Source: Acorus gramineus (taxonomy: Eukaryota > Streptophyta > Magnoliopsida > Acorales > Acoraceae). From it: a stretch of 64,000 nt of DNA. A program made the translations under genes and the position numbers. The notes beneath the pieces are model-generated. The model was not told where the DNA came from. It worked only from the letters and a program-made list of their open reading frames with translations, and searched no databases. Shown here piece after piece: positions 21,068-64,000 of this stretch (position 1 is the stretch's first letter; each line of letters opens with the position of its first letter). The stretch spans positions 20,383,868-20,447,867 of the forward strand of contig CM060852.1 of the NCBI GenBank assembly GCA_030737835.1, given 5' to 3'.

Positions 21068-24000
21068 ATGAAGGAGATGAAGAAGAAACATGGAGTGCGG
21101 AAGTTTCTTTCATCCCTTGGTAGTCATATCGGTAGTGAGCAGTCTGAAAGGTTGCAAAAGGATAAGCAAGGTAAATTACTCATCTTTGGACAAATCAGAT
21201 CAACTGTTTCATTCATTAGTCATGCTATGAAATTAGAAAACCTTTCTTTTTATTTTATATCTTCTATTGCTTGTGAGATGGCAATGAGAAAAAGTAGATG
21301 TTTAGAAACTGTAAAGAATGTCGGTCTTATTAAGTCTCCATGTTATTCACATGCAGAATTCATTTACTCCAGCAAATCTGAGTAGGAATGGTGGTGTAAA
21401 ATTGCGTGTGCATGTGTGCTGAAGATATTTATATGTGTTTTCCATTATAGAAAATAAGTTTTTTGTTTTAGAATAAACAAGATAATCTCCGTGATGATAG
21501 ACGTTATTATGTATTGACTAAAGAGGTTGATAGACACTCATATTGCTTTACATTAAATGTAAATTGTCTGTGCTGTTGTTTGTCTATGACTTGCCAAATT
21601 ACATGGTATAAACTCAGCTAGTTCTCTAATTGCAGATATTGAGGACAATATAAAGAAAATTCTAAAGTTGATCCATGAAGAAGAGAAGGATGAGGCTTTG
21701 CTAAGGAATGGAAATCATAAATCAGAACTGAGTTCTATTATCTCAGATTTTCAGGATCGCTACCAAGCCCTCTATGAACACTATCACAGTCTGACAGGAG
21801 AACTGAATAAAAAGGTCCATAAAAAGACAAAATCCGATGGAAGCTCATCATCCGATTCCAGCTCGGATTCTGAGTCGGAACATCTTTCAAAGCTCAAGAA
21901 GGTATCCAGTAAAAACGGGGAAGATGAGGCCGCTGTTGCAGACCATCAAGTGCTTCAAGAGCCGATAGAGAATCTCAGAAGAAAAAACGATGAGCTTGAA
22001 AGAGAAGTTGCATCGACTCATTTGAAGCTTAAGGCGAGTGAAAATTTAGCATCTGAGCTAAAAGAAAAGGAGGGATCATTATATGCTTTGCAAGCTGAGA
22101 ACATGGGCTTGAAGCACGAATTGGAAACTGCGAAGAGGAAGGAAATGGACATGAATCAGAAATTAATGCATTTGCTTGAAGAAAATGAAGGTCTGATGAG
22201 CAGGATAAGCGATATGGAAAAAATGATTGAAGATGGGAAACTTGAATCCCAAAAACTGAAAGATGAATTATCAATGCTACAAGATGAGAACGTTAAATTG
22301 AATCGAGAAATGGAGGCTTCACTCCAGCAGATAGCTGACCGTGACATGCAACTTTCTGCTGCAAGTGAAGAAAAGGATGCTTTAAAAGTCAAAAATTTGA
22401 AGCTTTTGAGCAATTTAGAGCAGGCGGAGAAATCCATGAAAGACCTTAAGAGTGAAAATTTACTATTAAATGATCAGAACTCAGAGTTGAAGTCGACAAA
22501 TGAAAGCTTTTCTGTTAAACTGGAAGATGCCGGCCAGCAGGTAGCGAGTCTCAACCAAACAATGGTGAGCGTTGAAGAAGAGAGAGCCTTATTGAGCTTG
22601 GAAATTTCAGAAGTAAGAGCTGAATCCAAGTTATTGAAAGAAGAGTTAGCAGGGATGCAGTCCAAGAAAGTGAGTCTGGAAAAAGAAATGGAAGTCGCAT
22701 ACCAGAAAGCGCAGCAGACGCAAGAAGTGCTTGAAAAGAGTGGGACTGAAATAGAAATGTTGAAGGGCAAGAACTCGCAATTGCAGGTTATGTATGATGG
22801 TTTGAAGGAAGAACTGGCATCTGCACTGGACGAAAAAGAATCCTTGGCTTCTGAAAAAATGATGGTTATGGACCAGATACGACAAGCGGAGAAAATTCAG
22901 GAAAAGTTCAGAATCCAAACTGAACTACTGGAAGATGAGAAGATCAAATTTCAAGCTACAATTGAGAGTCTGACTCTAGAACTTGCAGCTGAAAATACGC
23001 GAGAGGTTGATCTGAAGCAGACTCTGAGAGCCACTGAAGATTCCAAAGAGGCTCTGACCATGGAAATATCTGTTCTTGTGAATAAATTACAGGACACAGA
23101 AAACCATGTCAGGGAACTTGAAGAAAAGGTCTCTCTAATGGAAAGAGAATCTGAACGTAAAGGAATCGAAATTGCGACCCTTGAAAAGAAACTTCAAGAA
23201 ACCCGTCAAGATCTTGATTCTTTACAAATCCAAAAAATCGAACTGGAAGATGAGAAGATCAAATTTCAAGCTACAATGGAGTCTCAGACTATAGAACTTG
23301 CATCTGCAAATACGCGAGAGGTCGATCTGAAGCAGACTCTGAGATCCACTGAAGATGCCAAGGAGGCTTTGACCATGGAAATATCTGTTCTTGTGAATAA
23401 ATTACAGGACACAGAAAACCATGTCAGGGACCTTGAAGAAAATGTCTCTATATTGGATAGAGAATCTGAAGGTAAAGGAATTGAAATTGCGACCCTTGAA
23501 AAGAAACTTCAAGACACCCATCAAGATCTTGATTCTTTACAAATCCGAAAAACTGAACTGGAAGATGAGAAGATCAAATTTCAAGCTACAATGGAGTCTC
23601 GGACTATAGAACTTGCAGCTGCAAATACGCGAGAGGTCGATCTGAAGCAGACTCTGAGAGCCACTGAAGATGCCAAGGACGCTCTGTCCATGGAAATATC
23701 TGTTCTTGTGAATAAATTACAGGACACAGAAAACTATGTCAGGGAACTTGAAAAAAAGGTCTCTCTAATGGATAGAGAATCTGAAGGTAAAGCAATCGAA
23801 ATTGCAACCCTTGAAAAGAAACTTCAAGACACCTGTCAAGATCTTGATTCTTTACAAATAAAAAAAACTGAACTGGAAGATGAGAAGATCAAATTTCAAG
23901 CTACAATTGAGAGTCTGACTATAGAAATTGCAGCTGCAAATACGCGAGAGGTTGATCTGAAGCAGACTCTGAGAGCCACTGAAGATGCCAAGGAGGCTCT

Positions 24001-25765
24001 GGCCATGGAAGTATCTGTTCTTGTGAATAAATTACAGGACACAGCAAACCATGTCAAGGAACTTGAAGAAAAGGTCTCTCTGATGGATAGAGAATCTGAC
24101 GGTAAAGGAATTGAAATTGCGACCCTTGAAAAGAAACTTCAGGACACCCATCAAGATCTTGATTCTTTACAAATACAAAAAACTGAACTGGAAGATGAGA
24201 AGATCAAATTTCAAGCTACAATCGAGAGTCTGACTATAGAAATTGCAGCTTCAAATACACGAGAGGTTGATCTGAAGCAGACTCTGAGAGCCACTGAAGA
24301 TGCTAAGGAGGCTCTGGCCATGGAAGTATCTGTTCTTGTGAATAAATTACAGGACACAGAAAACCATGTCAGAGAACTTGAAGAAAAGTTCTCTCTAATG
24401 GATAGGGAATCCGAAGGTAAAGGAATCGAAATTGCAGCCCTTGAAAAGAAACTTGAAGGCACCCATCAAGATCTTGATTCATTACAAATCCAGAAAACCG
24501 AACTGCAAAATTTGTTGAAAGAGAGGGAGGATGCGCTAAATGAAGTCAATGCAACTTATGAGGAGTTGGATGATCAGTTCCAGGATACATGCAAGAAGCT
24601 CGAGAAAGCCGAGGCAAAGATTGAAGAAATATCAGAAGAGAATAGGGTAACTATTGAGCATAAAGAAGAGATCATTCGTTCGGGTGAAGAGCAGAAAAAA
24701 GAAGTTGATGCTTTGAGAAGCCAGATCAGTGAACTGAATGATCAGTTTCAGGATACATGCAAGAAGTTCGAGATAGCCAAGGCAAAGATTGAAGAGATGG
24801 AAGAAGAGAATAAGGTAACCATTGAGAATAAAGTGGAGACCGTTCGGTCATTGGAATCGGTGGCCAAAGAGCTGAAGAAAGAAGTTGATGCTTTACAAAG
24901 CCGGATCAGTGAATTAGAGGGAGGTCAGAAACTAACACTGGAAAGACTTCAAGCATCCGAAGCAGAAAAGAAGGATATGAACAGGGAGAAGATGCACCTT
25001 CTGCGACAGAAGGATATCGAGATCCGGATGATGACAGAGGAGTTTGCGAAGCTGCATGGGGACATTGAAGTTCAGCTTCGGCTATCGATGCAGAGGCTTC
25101 GAGTTACCGAAGACATATTGAAGGACAAAGAGGTGAAGTATCAGAAACTCGAGGAGAGGGTACTGGAAGAAAACAAGCAGCTCCAAGAAGAGGTTCTGCA
25201 GCTCACCGAAAAGGTTGGCTTGCTTAGAAAAGACCTTGCTCGAGTCAAACAATCAGCAGAGGTTACGATGAGGACTCTGAAAGATGGGCTCAGCGTGTTG
25301 GAGTTATCATTTGAGGAGAATTTTGGGCACTTCATGACCAGATTGCTTGAATGCTCACAAGAGGTAAACCACGCCAAAGACGCGTTCACAGAAGTTGTTG
25401 ACGAGCGGAATGAACTGAAGAATAAGAAGTCCAGTCTCTCAGTAAGACTGGAAGAGAAAGAAAGAATAGTTTTTGAGCTGACCGATGCGGTCCAGAATTT
25501 GAAAGCGAAGGTGGCAGAGAAGGAAGGGCAGGAGGAGAGGCTGAACGGGAGGCTGTGCGAGTACGAGAATAGAGTGGTGGAGCTGCGGAGGGCAGTGGAC
25601 GAGAAGGAAGAGGAGGTGCTGGGAAGGAACGAGGAGAAGAGGGAGGCAATACGGCAGTTGTGCCAGCTGGTGGAGTACCACCGGGAGAATTGCGACCGCC
25701 TCCGTCAGTCGCTCTCGGGGGTGGTCAGAAGGGGCCAGCATTCGACGACGCTGAGCGTCTCTTAG
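21068..25765 (+). CDS. CIP1: COP1-interactive protein 1 (CIP1)-like long coiled-coil protein
   Basis: Two coding exons, 21068-21170 and 21636-25765, give 1410 residues. The N-terminus (MKEMKKKHGVRKFLSS) and the next block (FQDRYQALYEHYHSLTGEL) match CIP1 and resemble the C-terminal part of the NAB/KIP1 actin-binding region. A Ser/Asp/Glu-rich segment (SDGSSSSDSSSDSESE) follows. Almost all the rest is heptad-patterned coiled coil, including five 105-residue repeats at about 465-989. The C-terminus (NEEKREAIRQLCQLVEYHRE) is the conserved CIP1 end. Arabidopsis CIP1 (At5g41790) was found as a COP1-binding, cytoskeleton-associated protein and later linked to abscisic acid responses. The first ATG was taken; a second in-frame ATG lies 9 bases downstream. 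No membrane segment is seen. The gene lies about 4.7 kb downstream of the transporter, on the same strand. Confidence 0.9.
22925..24499 (+). repeat. Five in-frame 315-bp tandem repeats in CIP1-like exon 2
   Basis: The landmark GAAGATGAGAAGATCAAATT starts at 22931, 23246, 23561, 23876 and 24191, exactly 315 bases apart each time. Each unit encodes 105 residues, that is 15 heptads, beginning ELEDEKIKFQAT and containing VDLKQTLRATEDAKEAL and MEISVLVNKLQDTENHV. Copies differ by scattered substitutions only and no unit breaks the frame. The exact period keeps the coiled-coil register. Confidence 0.97.
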
Positions 25766-35672: not shown

Positions 35673-36825
35673 GGGTTTAAGACATGTAAGTCCCTACAAA
35701 TATGGAAAAACTCATATAAGTCCCTAAGCGTACGAGTCATTGAAAACTCATAAAAACCTAATTATCATCAATGAGTTAAATTTACATCCAAACTTAACGG
35801 AATATTCCTAGAATATTTCATCACATATAATTATGTAGACATTGAAGTCCTTATAAACAGTCATACAGACAAATTAGTCCCTGCAAAAGATAAAATTGCC
35901 CCTAAAAGACTTTTACATTAAATTGTATATACATTGCAGTCCCTATAAATAATCATAAAGCCAAATTAGTCCATGCAAAAGATAAAATTTCCCCTGAAAG
36001 ATTTTTACATTTAGTTGGATAAACATTACAGTCCTTATAAACAATCGTAAAGACAAATTGGTCCCTGCAAAAGACAGAAATGCCCGTGAAGGATTATTAC
36101 ATTTAATTGTGTGGACATTACAGTCCGTTTAAACAATCATAATGATAAATAATATAATTTTTTTTTATTTATTTTTCATCTTCTATCCTATCACTCACAC
36201 TCCACTTGAACAAGTAATGAGTAATGCTCTTTTCTTTAAGGTGTTTGCTTGTTTTGAAATACCTTCAAATTGGGATCTTCAGGTGGAGTGTGAACGATAG
36301 GATAGAAGATGGAAAAAAAAAATTATATTATTTGTCTTTATGATTATTTATAAGGAATGTAATGTCTACACAATTAAATGCAAAAATTCTTCAAGGGGTG
36401 TTTTTGTCTTTTATAGGGGTCAATTTGTCTTTACGATTGTTTATAAGGACTGTAATGTCCATCCAATTAAATATAAAAGTATTTCAGGTGCAATTTTATC
36501 TTTTGCGAGGACTAATTTGTCTTTATGATTGTTTATAGGGACTGCAATGTGTACACAATTTAATGTAAAAGTTTTTCATGGGTAATTTTATCTTTTGTAG
36601 GGACTAATTTGTCTTTATGACTGTTTATAAGGACTTCAATGTCTACACAGTTACATGTAATAGAATATTCTGGGAATATTCCGTTAAGTTTGAATGAAAA
36701 TTTAATTCAAGGATGATATTTGAGTTTTAATTCTGAATTTTTAGGGACTCGTATGTCTGTCACAATTTTAGCAGGGACTTATATAGGTTTTTCCATGTTT
36801 GTAGGGATTTAAATGTCTTTAACCC
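35673..36825. mobile_element. Mutator-like foldback element, 1153 bp, 9-bp target duplication
   Basis: The ends GGGTTTAAGACATGTAAGTC and, inverted, GGGTTAAAGACATTTAAATC are flanked by the perfect 9-bp repeat AAAAATAAA at 35664-35672 and 36826-36834. Each arm, roughly 500 bp, contains several degenerate units of about 93 bp carrying CAGTCCCTATAAACAATCAT and GCAAAAGATAAAATTGCCCC type words. The arms meet at about 36165-36310. No transposase is encoded. Confidence 0.87.
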
Positions 36826-61880: not shown

Positions 61881-62612
61881 GGTTTTTTTTGTATGTATAC
61901 TATAAAAAATATGGTATTTATTTTTATACTACTACAAATAACATATTTATTTTTATACCATTAAAAAATTTCTTAATGTAAAAACATGCCCCTCTTTTAT
62001 TTTTTTTAATCAAAATGAACCTTAATTATAGTTTGTTTTTTAACCAAAAAAGTAAAAATGATAAAAATAACATTAACATATAATATGTTATAGTATAAAT
62101 AATTAAATATAATAACTTAATTAATCTCTTGTTCCTTCCAAATCAATCGTGAGCCATTCAACCTTACCATTTCTTTTCATTTTTACCAATCAATATCTAG
62201 ATTTTAAAAAAAATTTGTCATTTTGTAATATATATGATTATCAAAAATATTTTTATTTCATATGTATTAATGTAAGTATTAATAATTATTATGTTTTTGT
62301 TAATAAATAGTTTGTTTGTTTAATTTTTATGTTTTTGGATTTTAGATGAAATATATCATTTTTATGTTAAAATTAATATTTTTATTTTTATAAATATTTT
62401 ATTTTGGTATGGTAAAATATGCAAAATAAAAAAATAAGGGTAATTTTGTCATTTCTCCAAGACTTTAATGGTTTTAATAGAAATTTGGATGGAAGTTACT
62501 TAGGATGGTAAATATGCATAAGTTTCATATATTCCAATGGTATAAAAATAAATAGGCTACTTAGAATGGTATAAAAATAAATAGTATGTTTTTGGATGGT
62601 ATGCATGCAAAA
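61881..62612. repeat. AT-rich inverted-repeat element, copy A
   Basis: The ends carry matched inverted words: TGTATGTATACTATAAAAAA at left and, in inverse, TGCATGCATACCATCCAAAA at right, both followed by TATTTATTTTTATAC. A second copy lies at 63233-63925 in direct orientation. Probably a non-autonomous DNA transposon, superfamily unknown. Confidence 0.65.
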
Positions 62613-62639
62613 TTATTGGAGTTATTTTTTAAAATTTTT

Positions 62640-63232
62640 AAAGTATATTTGTTTTGTTATATATTTAAGTTTTATAAAAAATTTATTATTGGAAATGTAT
62701 TTTGAGATATTTAAAATGCAATCAATATTATACATACTTAGCATATAATAAAATTATAATTTTAAGATATGTTAATTAACAACTAATATTGACTTGATGT
62801 AAAAAATATTTGATTACATTAATGATAATTATTTTGATAGGATAATAAAAATTATCCTTTAAATATGTATTGTTTAAATTTGATTGGAGGTCGAGAAAAT
62901 ATGCAGAAAAAAAATCAATTATAGAAGTGATTTTTTTTTAAATATCTTGTAATATATATTTAATTTTTATATAATTAATAATTTTAGAAATATATTGTCA
63001 AGATTTTTAAAATGCAATCAATATTGAACATATTTAGTATATGATTAAATTATAATTTTAAGAAAAAAATTAATATTGATTTCATTTAATTAATAGTCAA
63101 TTACATTAATTGTCATTATTTTGATAGGATATTTAATTACATTAATTATCATTATTGTCCTGAAATTTAAAATGCAATCAATATTTAACATATTTAGTAT
63201 ATATTAAAATTACAATTTTAAGAAATTTTAAT
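62640..63232. repeat. AT-rich tandem-like repeat units between the two element copies
   Basis: The phrase AAAATGCAATCAATATT followed by ACATA-TTAG-ATAT and AATTTTAAGA occurs at about 62713, 63009 and 63169, and again in part near 63940. TACATTAAT and TTTTGATAGGAT words recur between them. Copies are diverged and spacing is uneven. Confidence 0.6.
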
Positions 63233-63925
63233 GGGTTTTTTGCATGTAATCTTAAAAGATATTGTATTTATTTTTACGCCATTACAATATTTCTTAATGT
63301 AAAAATATGTCCCCCTTTTAATATTTTTAACTAAAATGAACCTTAATTATATTTAGTTTCTTAACTATGAAGTAAAAATGACAAAAATAATATTAATATA
63401 TAATATTTTTCATAATATAAATAATTAAATATAATAAGCTAATTAATTGTATGTTCTTTTCAAATCAATCATGTGTCATTCAACCTTACCCGTTCTTTCC
63501 TTTTCTTTTAATCAAGATCTAATTTTTTTAAAATTTGTCATTTCGTAATATATATGATTAATTATTCTCAAAATAATTTTATTTTATTTTACTAATGTAA
63601 GTATTAATAAGTATTATGTCTTTGCTAATAAATAGTTTATATGATTAATTTTCATGTTTTTGGATTTTAGATGAAATTTATAATTTTTATGTTGAAATTA
63701 AATTTTTTATTTTTATAAATATTGTATTTTTTAAGGTTAAATATGCAAAAAGAAGGGTAATTTGCTCATTTTTCTACGATTTTAGTGGTTTTAATAGAGA
63801 TTTGGATGAAAGTTAACTAAGATGCTAATTATGCATAAATTCTTTATATTTCAATGATATAAAAATAAATATGTTATTTGGAGGGATATAAAATTAAATA
63901 GCATGTTTTTGGATAGTATACATTA
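63233..63925. repeat. AT-rich inverted-repeat element, copy B
   Basis: It follows copy A from start to end (ATTTCTTAATGTAAAAA, AAATGAACCTTAATTATA, ATTTGGATGAAAGTTA, AGCATGTTTTTGGATAGTAT) with many substitutions. The last bases of the window (CATAGCATGTTTTTCGATGG) look like the end of a further copy. Confidence 0.65.
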
Positions 63926-64000
63926 AAAAAACTCTTTTTAAATTAACAATTAATATTGATTTGATTAATATTTATTTACATAGCATGTTTTTCGATGGTA

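Follow-up and report, generated by a model that had tools for sequence, protein, structure and literature searches.

What does it mean that a coiled-coil gene carries, within a single exon, five copies of one long segment, and how did the copies arise? This question is raised by a 64,000-nucleotide stretch of Acorus gramineus DNA (GenBank assembly GCA_030737835.1, contig CM060852.1, positions 20,383,868 to 20,447,867 of the forward strand; hereafter the window, whose own numbering is used below), which encodes on its forward strand a long rod protein that, from its size and architecture, is a putative CIP1. The array (window 22925-24499) consists of five head-to-tail 315-bp units, equal to 5 x 105 residues (residues 465-989), and is an in-register tandem expansion of a coiled coil, the unit being a multiple of seven residues and the heptad register running unbroken through the array. 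We lean towards reading it as an old, in-register lengthening of the spacer in a tether that would be both CIP1-like and similar to NET4 of the NETWORKED (NET) superfamily.

The five units, as delimited by repeat finders and pairwise comparison, occupy 22925..23239 (unit 1, residues 465-569), 23240..23554 (unit 2), 23555..23869 (unit 3), 23870..24184 (unit 4) and 24185..24499 (unit 5, ending at residue 989), all on the forward strand and all in the single frame of an open exon (21636-25765), with the codon start of unit 1 at 22925. Tandem Repeats Finder reported window 22927-24505 with a period of 315, 5.0 copies, 93% matches, 0% indels and a score of 2689, and the unit spacings in the repeat-finder output were 315, 315, 315 and 315, confirming the claim of the initial annotation that all four intervals measure 315 bp. 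This exactness has no special force, being what is expected of duplication without later indels. The units match one another at 90.2-93.7% of DNA positions and 82.9-92.4% of protein positions; the 315-bp blocks flanking the array share 32-35% DNA identity with the units and are unrelated to them. All five units are free of stops, frameshifts and length changes. When unit 1 was compared with the 398.6-Mb host genome (137 contigs), with only the best candidates scored, five matches emerged among those candidates, and each belonged to the array itself. The array is real and far beyond chance.

Over periods of 2.5 to 12 residues, a Fourier scan placed the hydrophobic maximum of the array at 3.50; in a discrete transform the line at 2.33 (7/3) exceeded the line at 3.5, and a heptad accounts for both. 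The hydrophobic phase of the array lies near that of the flanking rod from about residue 300 to residue 1090, with some noisier windows, and under one fixed register the a and d positions are hydrophobic in 62% of cases in residues 300-464, 65% in the array and 64% in residues 990-1066, compared with 7-17% at the other positions. The period of 3.50 and this fixed register bear out the earlier proposal that a unit of 105 residues, or 15 heptads, leaves the register unaltered. The array register is less clear in residues 1067-1126 (53% hydrophobic at a/d), which form copy 2 of a second repeat described below, and further along the best register shifts piece by piece. The rod as a whole has no proline past residue 144 and shows heptad periodicity along its length. 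We do not accept a sixth, diverged unit outside the array, as the top match of the unit profile there (residues 312-362) scored 6.5 bits and the top of 50 shuffles 5.8, too small a margin. Assembly into filaments through a parallel stagger of 105 residues is claimed neither way: charges repel at offsets of 105, 210 and 315 (z -6.0, -4.9 and -3.7) because the copies are nearly identical, and offsets of about 100-102, 111-112 and 204-206 rank among the best in the charge scan.

The expansion looks old. All ten unit pairs differ at 17-28 of 298 sites (unit positions 3-300), and a minimum-evolution tree joins units 2-3 and units 4-5 with bootstraps of 852 and 855 of 1000; its two internal branches measure 2.5 and 3.0 changes, shorter than the pendant ones at 6.3-12.7. 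We read this as a burst of copying, after which the copies diverged independently without continuing turnover. The initial annotation had suggested recent duplication or ongoing gene conversion, a suggestion not supported by the distance of the closest pair (17 of 298), the star-like tree and the lack of any detectable conversion tract. Ongoing gene conversion was rejected as the main claim, the longest shared run covering 6 of the 54 variable sites (global p 0.999); a PHI-like test at four window sizes gave p values of 0.14, 0.14, 0.07 and 0.04, borderline at best. Near-identical neighbouring units or conversion tracts were found nowhere among the five units, and the array does not look like an actively homogenised or polymorphic coding minisatellite. 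Because no pair of units is near-identical, copy-number variation between individuals is less likely. A microhomology-driven origin was also rejected: the two edges of the array align over 15 columns, with a single mismatch and a gap of 3 bases, and random 40-mers of the exon align as well (p 0.155).

Substitutions are distributed unevenly among the copies. Ratios of replacement to silent divergence (dN/dS, NG86 method) are 0.74-1.19 among units 1-4, while unit 5 has the highest silent-site divergence of the five (dS 0.16-0.24) and a dN/dS of 0.14 against unit 4. At two-allele sites, the only ones counted, units 1-3 carry 22 private replacement changes and 2 silent ones, unit 4 carries 3 and 2, and unit 5 carries 5 and 7. 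The replacement share lies only marginally above the neutral value in units 1-3 (p 0.014-0.064, depending on transition bias) and below it in unit 5 (p 0.008-0.034), and Fisher tests of unit 5 against units 1-3 (p 0.0025) and against units 1-4 (p 0.0066) are both post hoc contrasts. The units at the start of the array seem to be relaxed or diversifying, and the final one constrained.

The protein that carries the array is encoded by two coding exons. The coding part of the first (21068..21170, forward strand) specifies residues 1-34 plus one base (MKEMKKKHG...DKQ) and is followed by a GT donor at 21171; an intron (21171-21635) ending in an AG acceptor (21634-21635) separates it from the second (21636..25765, forward strand), which is open over 4130 bp, encodes the whole rod and ends in TAG. 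The start codon at 21068 and the exon junction were taken from the sequence letters and those of the splice sites. The joined coding sequence specifies 1410 residues (162.1 kDa, isoelectric point 4.9) with its sole stop at the end; the protein contains no tryptophan and a single proline (residue 144), which lies ahead of the rod. Removal of the four extra copies would leave 990 residues. Directly 3' of the array lies a second tandem repeat, delimited by a repeat finder and more diverged than the array, whose copy 1 (24563..24730, forward strand; residues 1011-1066) comprises 56 residues, or 8 heptads, and whose copy 2 (24731..24910, forward strand; residues 1067-1126) comprises 60 residues, or 8 heptads plus 4. 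With two separate repeats in one rod, the rod has therefore been enlarged by tandem duplication at least twice.

Compared with the host genome at an E-value of 0.001, the exon-2 protein (1365 residues) matched this gene alone, 34 of 197 first-look candidates having been scored. Outside the host genome, single scans of viral contigs and of genome (prokaryote) contigs, and a PDB search at an E-value of 0.001, found no relatives. Two Pfam matches of the protein were set aside: Rod_CreS (67.7 bits, below its cut-off of 100) was taken as a coiled-coil cross-hit, and TRAF_BTBD17 (44.4 bits, above its curated cut-off of 27, over five stretches, the best at exon-2 residues 641-747) is apparently another. 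Five more Pfam matches were weak and below cut-off.

Both ends of the protein resemble those of known linkers between actin and membranes, and those of two other genes in the host genome, which we call NET4-like and NET3-like, labels presumed from architecture that are not database names. At the C-terminus, the IRQ-like domain (25580..25720, forward strand; residues 1350-1396), recognised by sequence, profile and reciprocal matches, carries the IRQ triplet at 25649-25657 (residues 1373-1375) within KREAIRQLC, and the motif K-R-E-x-I-R-Q-L is common to the window protein and the NET4-like and NET3-like genes. In BLAST against 581 open reading frames of nine other NAB loci, the best match of the C-terminus was the NET4-like protein (48% over 44 residues, E-value 3e-5), and genome-wide the window IRQ piece and the NET4-like gene are reciprocal best non-self matches (49% over 43 residues, E-value 0.002 each way). 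Neither of these two queries reported any other match up to an E-value of 10, a silence that is weak, since the NET3-like gene was missed too. A profile built from the NET4-like and NET3-like IRQ domains only scored 26.9 bits at residues 1353-1387, compared with at most 14.2 among 1000 heptad-preserving shuffles, 967 of which gave a score. In published work, the IRQ domain is described as C-terminal with an invariable IRQ, binding GTP-loaded RABG3 in NET4, and occurring among NET members only in NET4A, NET4B, NET3A and NET3C (PMC10511709). The C-terminal domain of the window protein carries the invariable IRQ and resembles the Rab7(RABG3)-binding domain of NET4, which makes it a putative RABG3-binding-like segment. 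No publication joining CIP1 to the IRQ domain was found among the records listed in the literature searched, judged at record level and with most subscription journals outside.

At the N-terminus, a KIP1/NAB-like domain (Pfam PF07765) spans 21119..21784 (forward strand; residues 18-84) and is split by the intron. With the exons joined, the N-terminal 131 residues reach 49.1 bits, above the curated cut-off of 33.9; exon 2 alone stays below it at 32.2 bits. In BLAST against the same 581 open reading frames, the head matches the NET4-like protein about equally well as the longer NAB protein of contig 7 (E-value 1e-4 each). Behind it lies a Ser/Asp-rich linker (21833..21880, forward strand; residues 101-116), and the NAB domains of the NET4-like and NET3-like genes are likewise followed by a Ser-rich stretch. 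The 7-9.5-kb stretches around all nine other NAB loci, which perhaps do not cover the genes wholly, contained no tandem array with a period above 29 bp; three of the nine loci are copies of one gene. The NET3-like gene occurs at three places (C2:646922-647086, C2:1431783-1431947 and C97:95170-95334) with equal KIP1 scores and identical 47-residue IRQ pieces, two copies lying on contig 2 in opposite orientation and one on a small contig, a triplicate that reflects either recent duplication or assembly duplication.

CIP1 itself was reported in 1995 as a cytoskeleton-associated partner of COP1 (Matsui 1995, cited in PMC7789773), and the same source states that apple and Arabidopsis CIP1 bind COP1 via coiled coils, that CIP1 shows a fibrillar, cytoplasmic pattern, that the COP1-binding coiled coil of apple CIP1 is placed at residues 251-684, and that CIP1 function is not fully understood (PMC7789773). 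More than 80% of CIP1 is given as coiled coil (PMC1322226), and CIP1 is said to promote abscisic acid (ABA) signalling, with the details unknown (PMC8024647).

The account towards which we lean would proceed as follows. In a CIP1-like rod protein bearing a NAB-like head and, at the opposite end, an IRQ-like (RABG3/Rab7-binding-like) segment, one 15-heptad coiled-coil segment would long ago have been multiplied in register to five copies, which then diverged independently. An alpha-helical coiled coil rises 0.1485 nm per residue; a 105-residue unit would thus measure 15.6 nm when extended and the array about 78 nm. In a parallel, extended dimer, each unit would add about 15.6 nm to the rod, possibly together with one flexible joint near positions 72-79, and the array would keep the two ends apart as a spacer built of segments, about 78 nm long. 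That the array sets rod length is plausible.

The candidate joint comes from AlphaFold2 models. Units 2-3, modelled with an alignment of the three other overlapping neighbour pairs (mean pLDDT 91.8, pTM 0.61), break at 72-78 and 177-181, equivalent places in the two units, and the array modelled alone without alignment is helical (mean pLDDT 77.0) with breaks at 75-79, 176-204 and 391-394. The corresponding candidate hinge in unit 1 lies at 23138..23158 (forward strand; unit positions 72-78) and recurs every 315 bp. Its heptad is polar in both core layers (S76 at a, K79 at d) in every unit, and glycine occupies unit position 78 in four of five units and position 80 in four of five. T37 and K41 form further adjacent polar layers, yet no break is predicted there. 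A joint near unit positions 72-79, repeated every 105 residues, is possible on these models, which are of a single chain and in which a joint in an extended dimer looks the same as a fold-back. The lengthening reading does not depend on the joint.

Several observations weigh against this account. The a/d core is not significantly more conserved among units than the remainder (7 of 30 positions variable compared with 24 of 75 elsewhere, p 0.48; 31 of 105 residues overall), and the selection results weaken the claim that each copy is preserved, leaving selection on the coil between copies unsupported. At 1410 residues the protein is shorter than the 1586 and 1640 residues of Arabidopsis and apple CIP1 (PMC7789773), and the array need not lengthen the rod beyond what is usual in the family. 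In the array model the breaks fall in units 1, 2 and 4, with units 3 and 5 continuous; helix propensity is lowest at unit positions 95 and 60 and only then at 77-79; and the predicted hinges may be fold-back artefacts. At the two ends, a genome-wide query with the NET3-like IRQ domain did not recover the window gene, and the head lacks eight of the ten placeable members of the 13 published NAB invariants (PMC4046492): W15-17 and W27 are absent, A57, P65, R79 and A82 are replaced, and D51 and L81 are retained, on numbers transferred by eye along the NET4-like row of the alignment, where H20, S25 and L32 remained unplaced. By the published NAB definition the protein is not a NET protein, and actin binding by its NAB-like head is doubtful because so many of the placeable invariants are missing.

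A neutral origin we regard as less probable than functional lengthening, and as the most probable of the competing readings. Heptad-coding DNA is internally similar and unequal exchange therefore multiplies segments now and then, and in-register copies may simply have been tolerated, leaving a by-product without function. A dN/dS of 0.74-1.19 among units 1-4, the 22 replacement to 2 silent private changes of units 1-3, the unprotected a/d positions and an array-edge similarity no better than that of random 40-mers of the exon (p 0.155) are all consistent with such an origin. Neutrality fits less well with five units free of stops, frameshifts and length changes, with a register preserved to the residue, and with the constraint on unit 5 (5 replacement and 7 silent changes, p 0.008-0.034; post hoc Fisher p 0.0025 and 0.0066). 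An error in copy number, by comparison, hardly merits belief: tandem repeats are prone to collapse or expansion in assembly, but mis-assembly of this array is unlikely because the window contains zero N and the array, only 1.6 kb long and spannable by ordinary long reads, lies inside a 25.1-Mb contig (at 20.38-20.45 Mb), and its units differ from one another at 17-28 of 298 sites.

Two further alternatives concern what the array does. If each 105-residue unit bore a COP1-binding face, five copies would recruit more COP1 per rod, and the array (residues 465-989) does overlap by position the COP1-binding residues 251-684 of apple CIP1 (PMC7789773). We consider such a multivalent platform improbable, given that the overlap is one of position only, unaligned to apple CIP1 and drawn across a family in which the apple and Arabidopsis proteins share about 30% similarity (PMC7789773), and that 31 of 105 residues vary among units. 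Slightly more improbable still is a chain folding back at each joint into an antiparallel stack of helices of about 98 residues in place of an extended rod. The shared break position in the units 2-3 model, the breaks in units 1, 2 and 4 when the whole array is modelled, and the pTM of 0.61 for units 2-3 would suit this concertina, but a turn does not require the identical heptad register that is found on either side of the joint, units 3 and 5 are unbroken in the array model, and single-chain prediction favours fold-back.

Two other features of the window lie outside the gene. At 35673-36825 two 349-nt arms, 86% complementary, form a fold-back; each arm overlaps a 92-bp tandem array, and more inverted repeats lie outside and nested. 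The structure resembles a non-coding fold-back or an element of transposon-like type. The stretch 62000-64000 is very A+T-rich (15-20% GC in 400-bp steps), lower in GC than all other 2-kb steps.

The most useful lead is offered by the NAB-like and IRQ-like ends, which lie outside the array coordinates. A broader and rather unlikely proposal is that CIP1-like proteins are giant, uncounted relatives of the NET4/NET3 actin-to-tonoplast tethers, with a diverged NAB-like head, a working RABG3-binding IRQ end and COP1 along the rod, the reach of the tether having been reset here when a jointed 15.6-nm segment was multiplied in register. If true, light and ABA signalling would be tied to the vacuole or endosome surface. 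The IRQ-like end gives a concrete pointer, via its predicted RABG3 binding, to where CIP1 might sit. In a soybean membrane proteome, CIP1 homologues (139.4, 153.2 and 162.5 kDa) and RABG3a were among the membrane proteins raised by salt, which fits the IRQ reading and is no demonstration of it (PMC9655375). Furthermore, the array provides a natural series of five equal in-register modules for asking how much rod length matters.

Among known systems, the window protein resembles CIP1 (Arabidopsis At5g41790, apple MdCIP1) in general form, being also very long and, as predicted, mostly coiled coil, and it shares with the soybean homologues an acidic isoelectric point and a mass (162.1 kDa) inside their range of 139.4-162.5 kDa (PMC9655375). 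It differs from CIP1 in its length, 1410 residues compared with 1586 in Arabidopsis and 1640 in apple, proteins of about 30% mutual similarity, despite its five-fold 105-residue array (PMC7789773). With NET4 and NET3 it shares the order of parts, a NAB-like head, a Ser-rich linker, a coiled coil and an IRQ near the C-terminus; in contrast to theirs, its head has no tryptophan and lacks eight of ten placeable invariants, and its rod greatly exceeds in length the one encoded by the NET4-like gene (a 529-residue open frame). Chicken BG genes likewise alter coiled-coil length in whole heptads, through one-heptad 21-nt exons whose number varies between genes and haplotypes (PMC5938342), whereas the window array uses a 15-heptad unit within one exon and shows no sign of variation. 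Giantin, Spc110, ROCK2 and WbdD are likewise long rods, thought to keep their ends apart; truncation showed length effects for several such coiled-coil rulers (PMC5082667), whereas for the window array we infer the role. In coiled-coil spacers, length is conserved and sequence divergent (PMC5082667), and a rod whose length is kept while its sequence turns over may well fit the size of the window protein.

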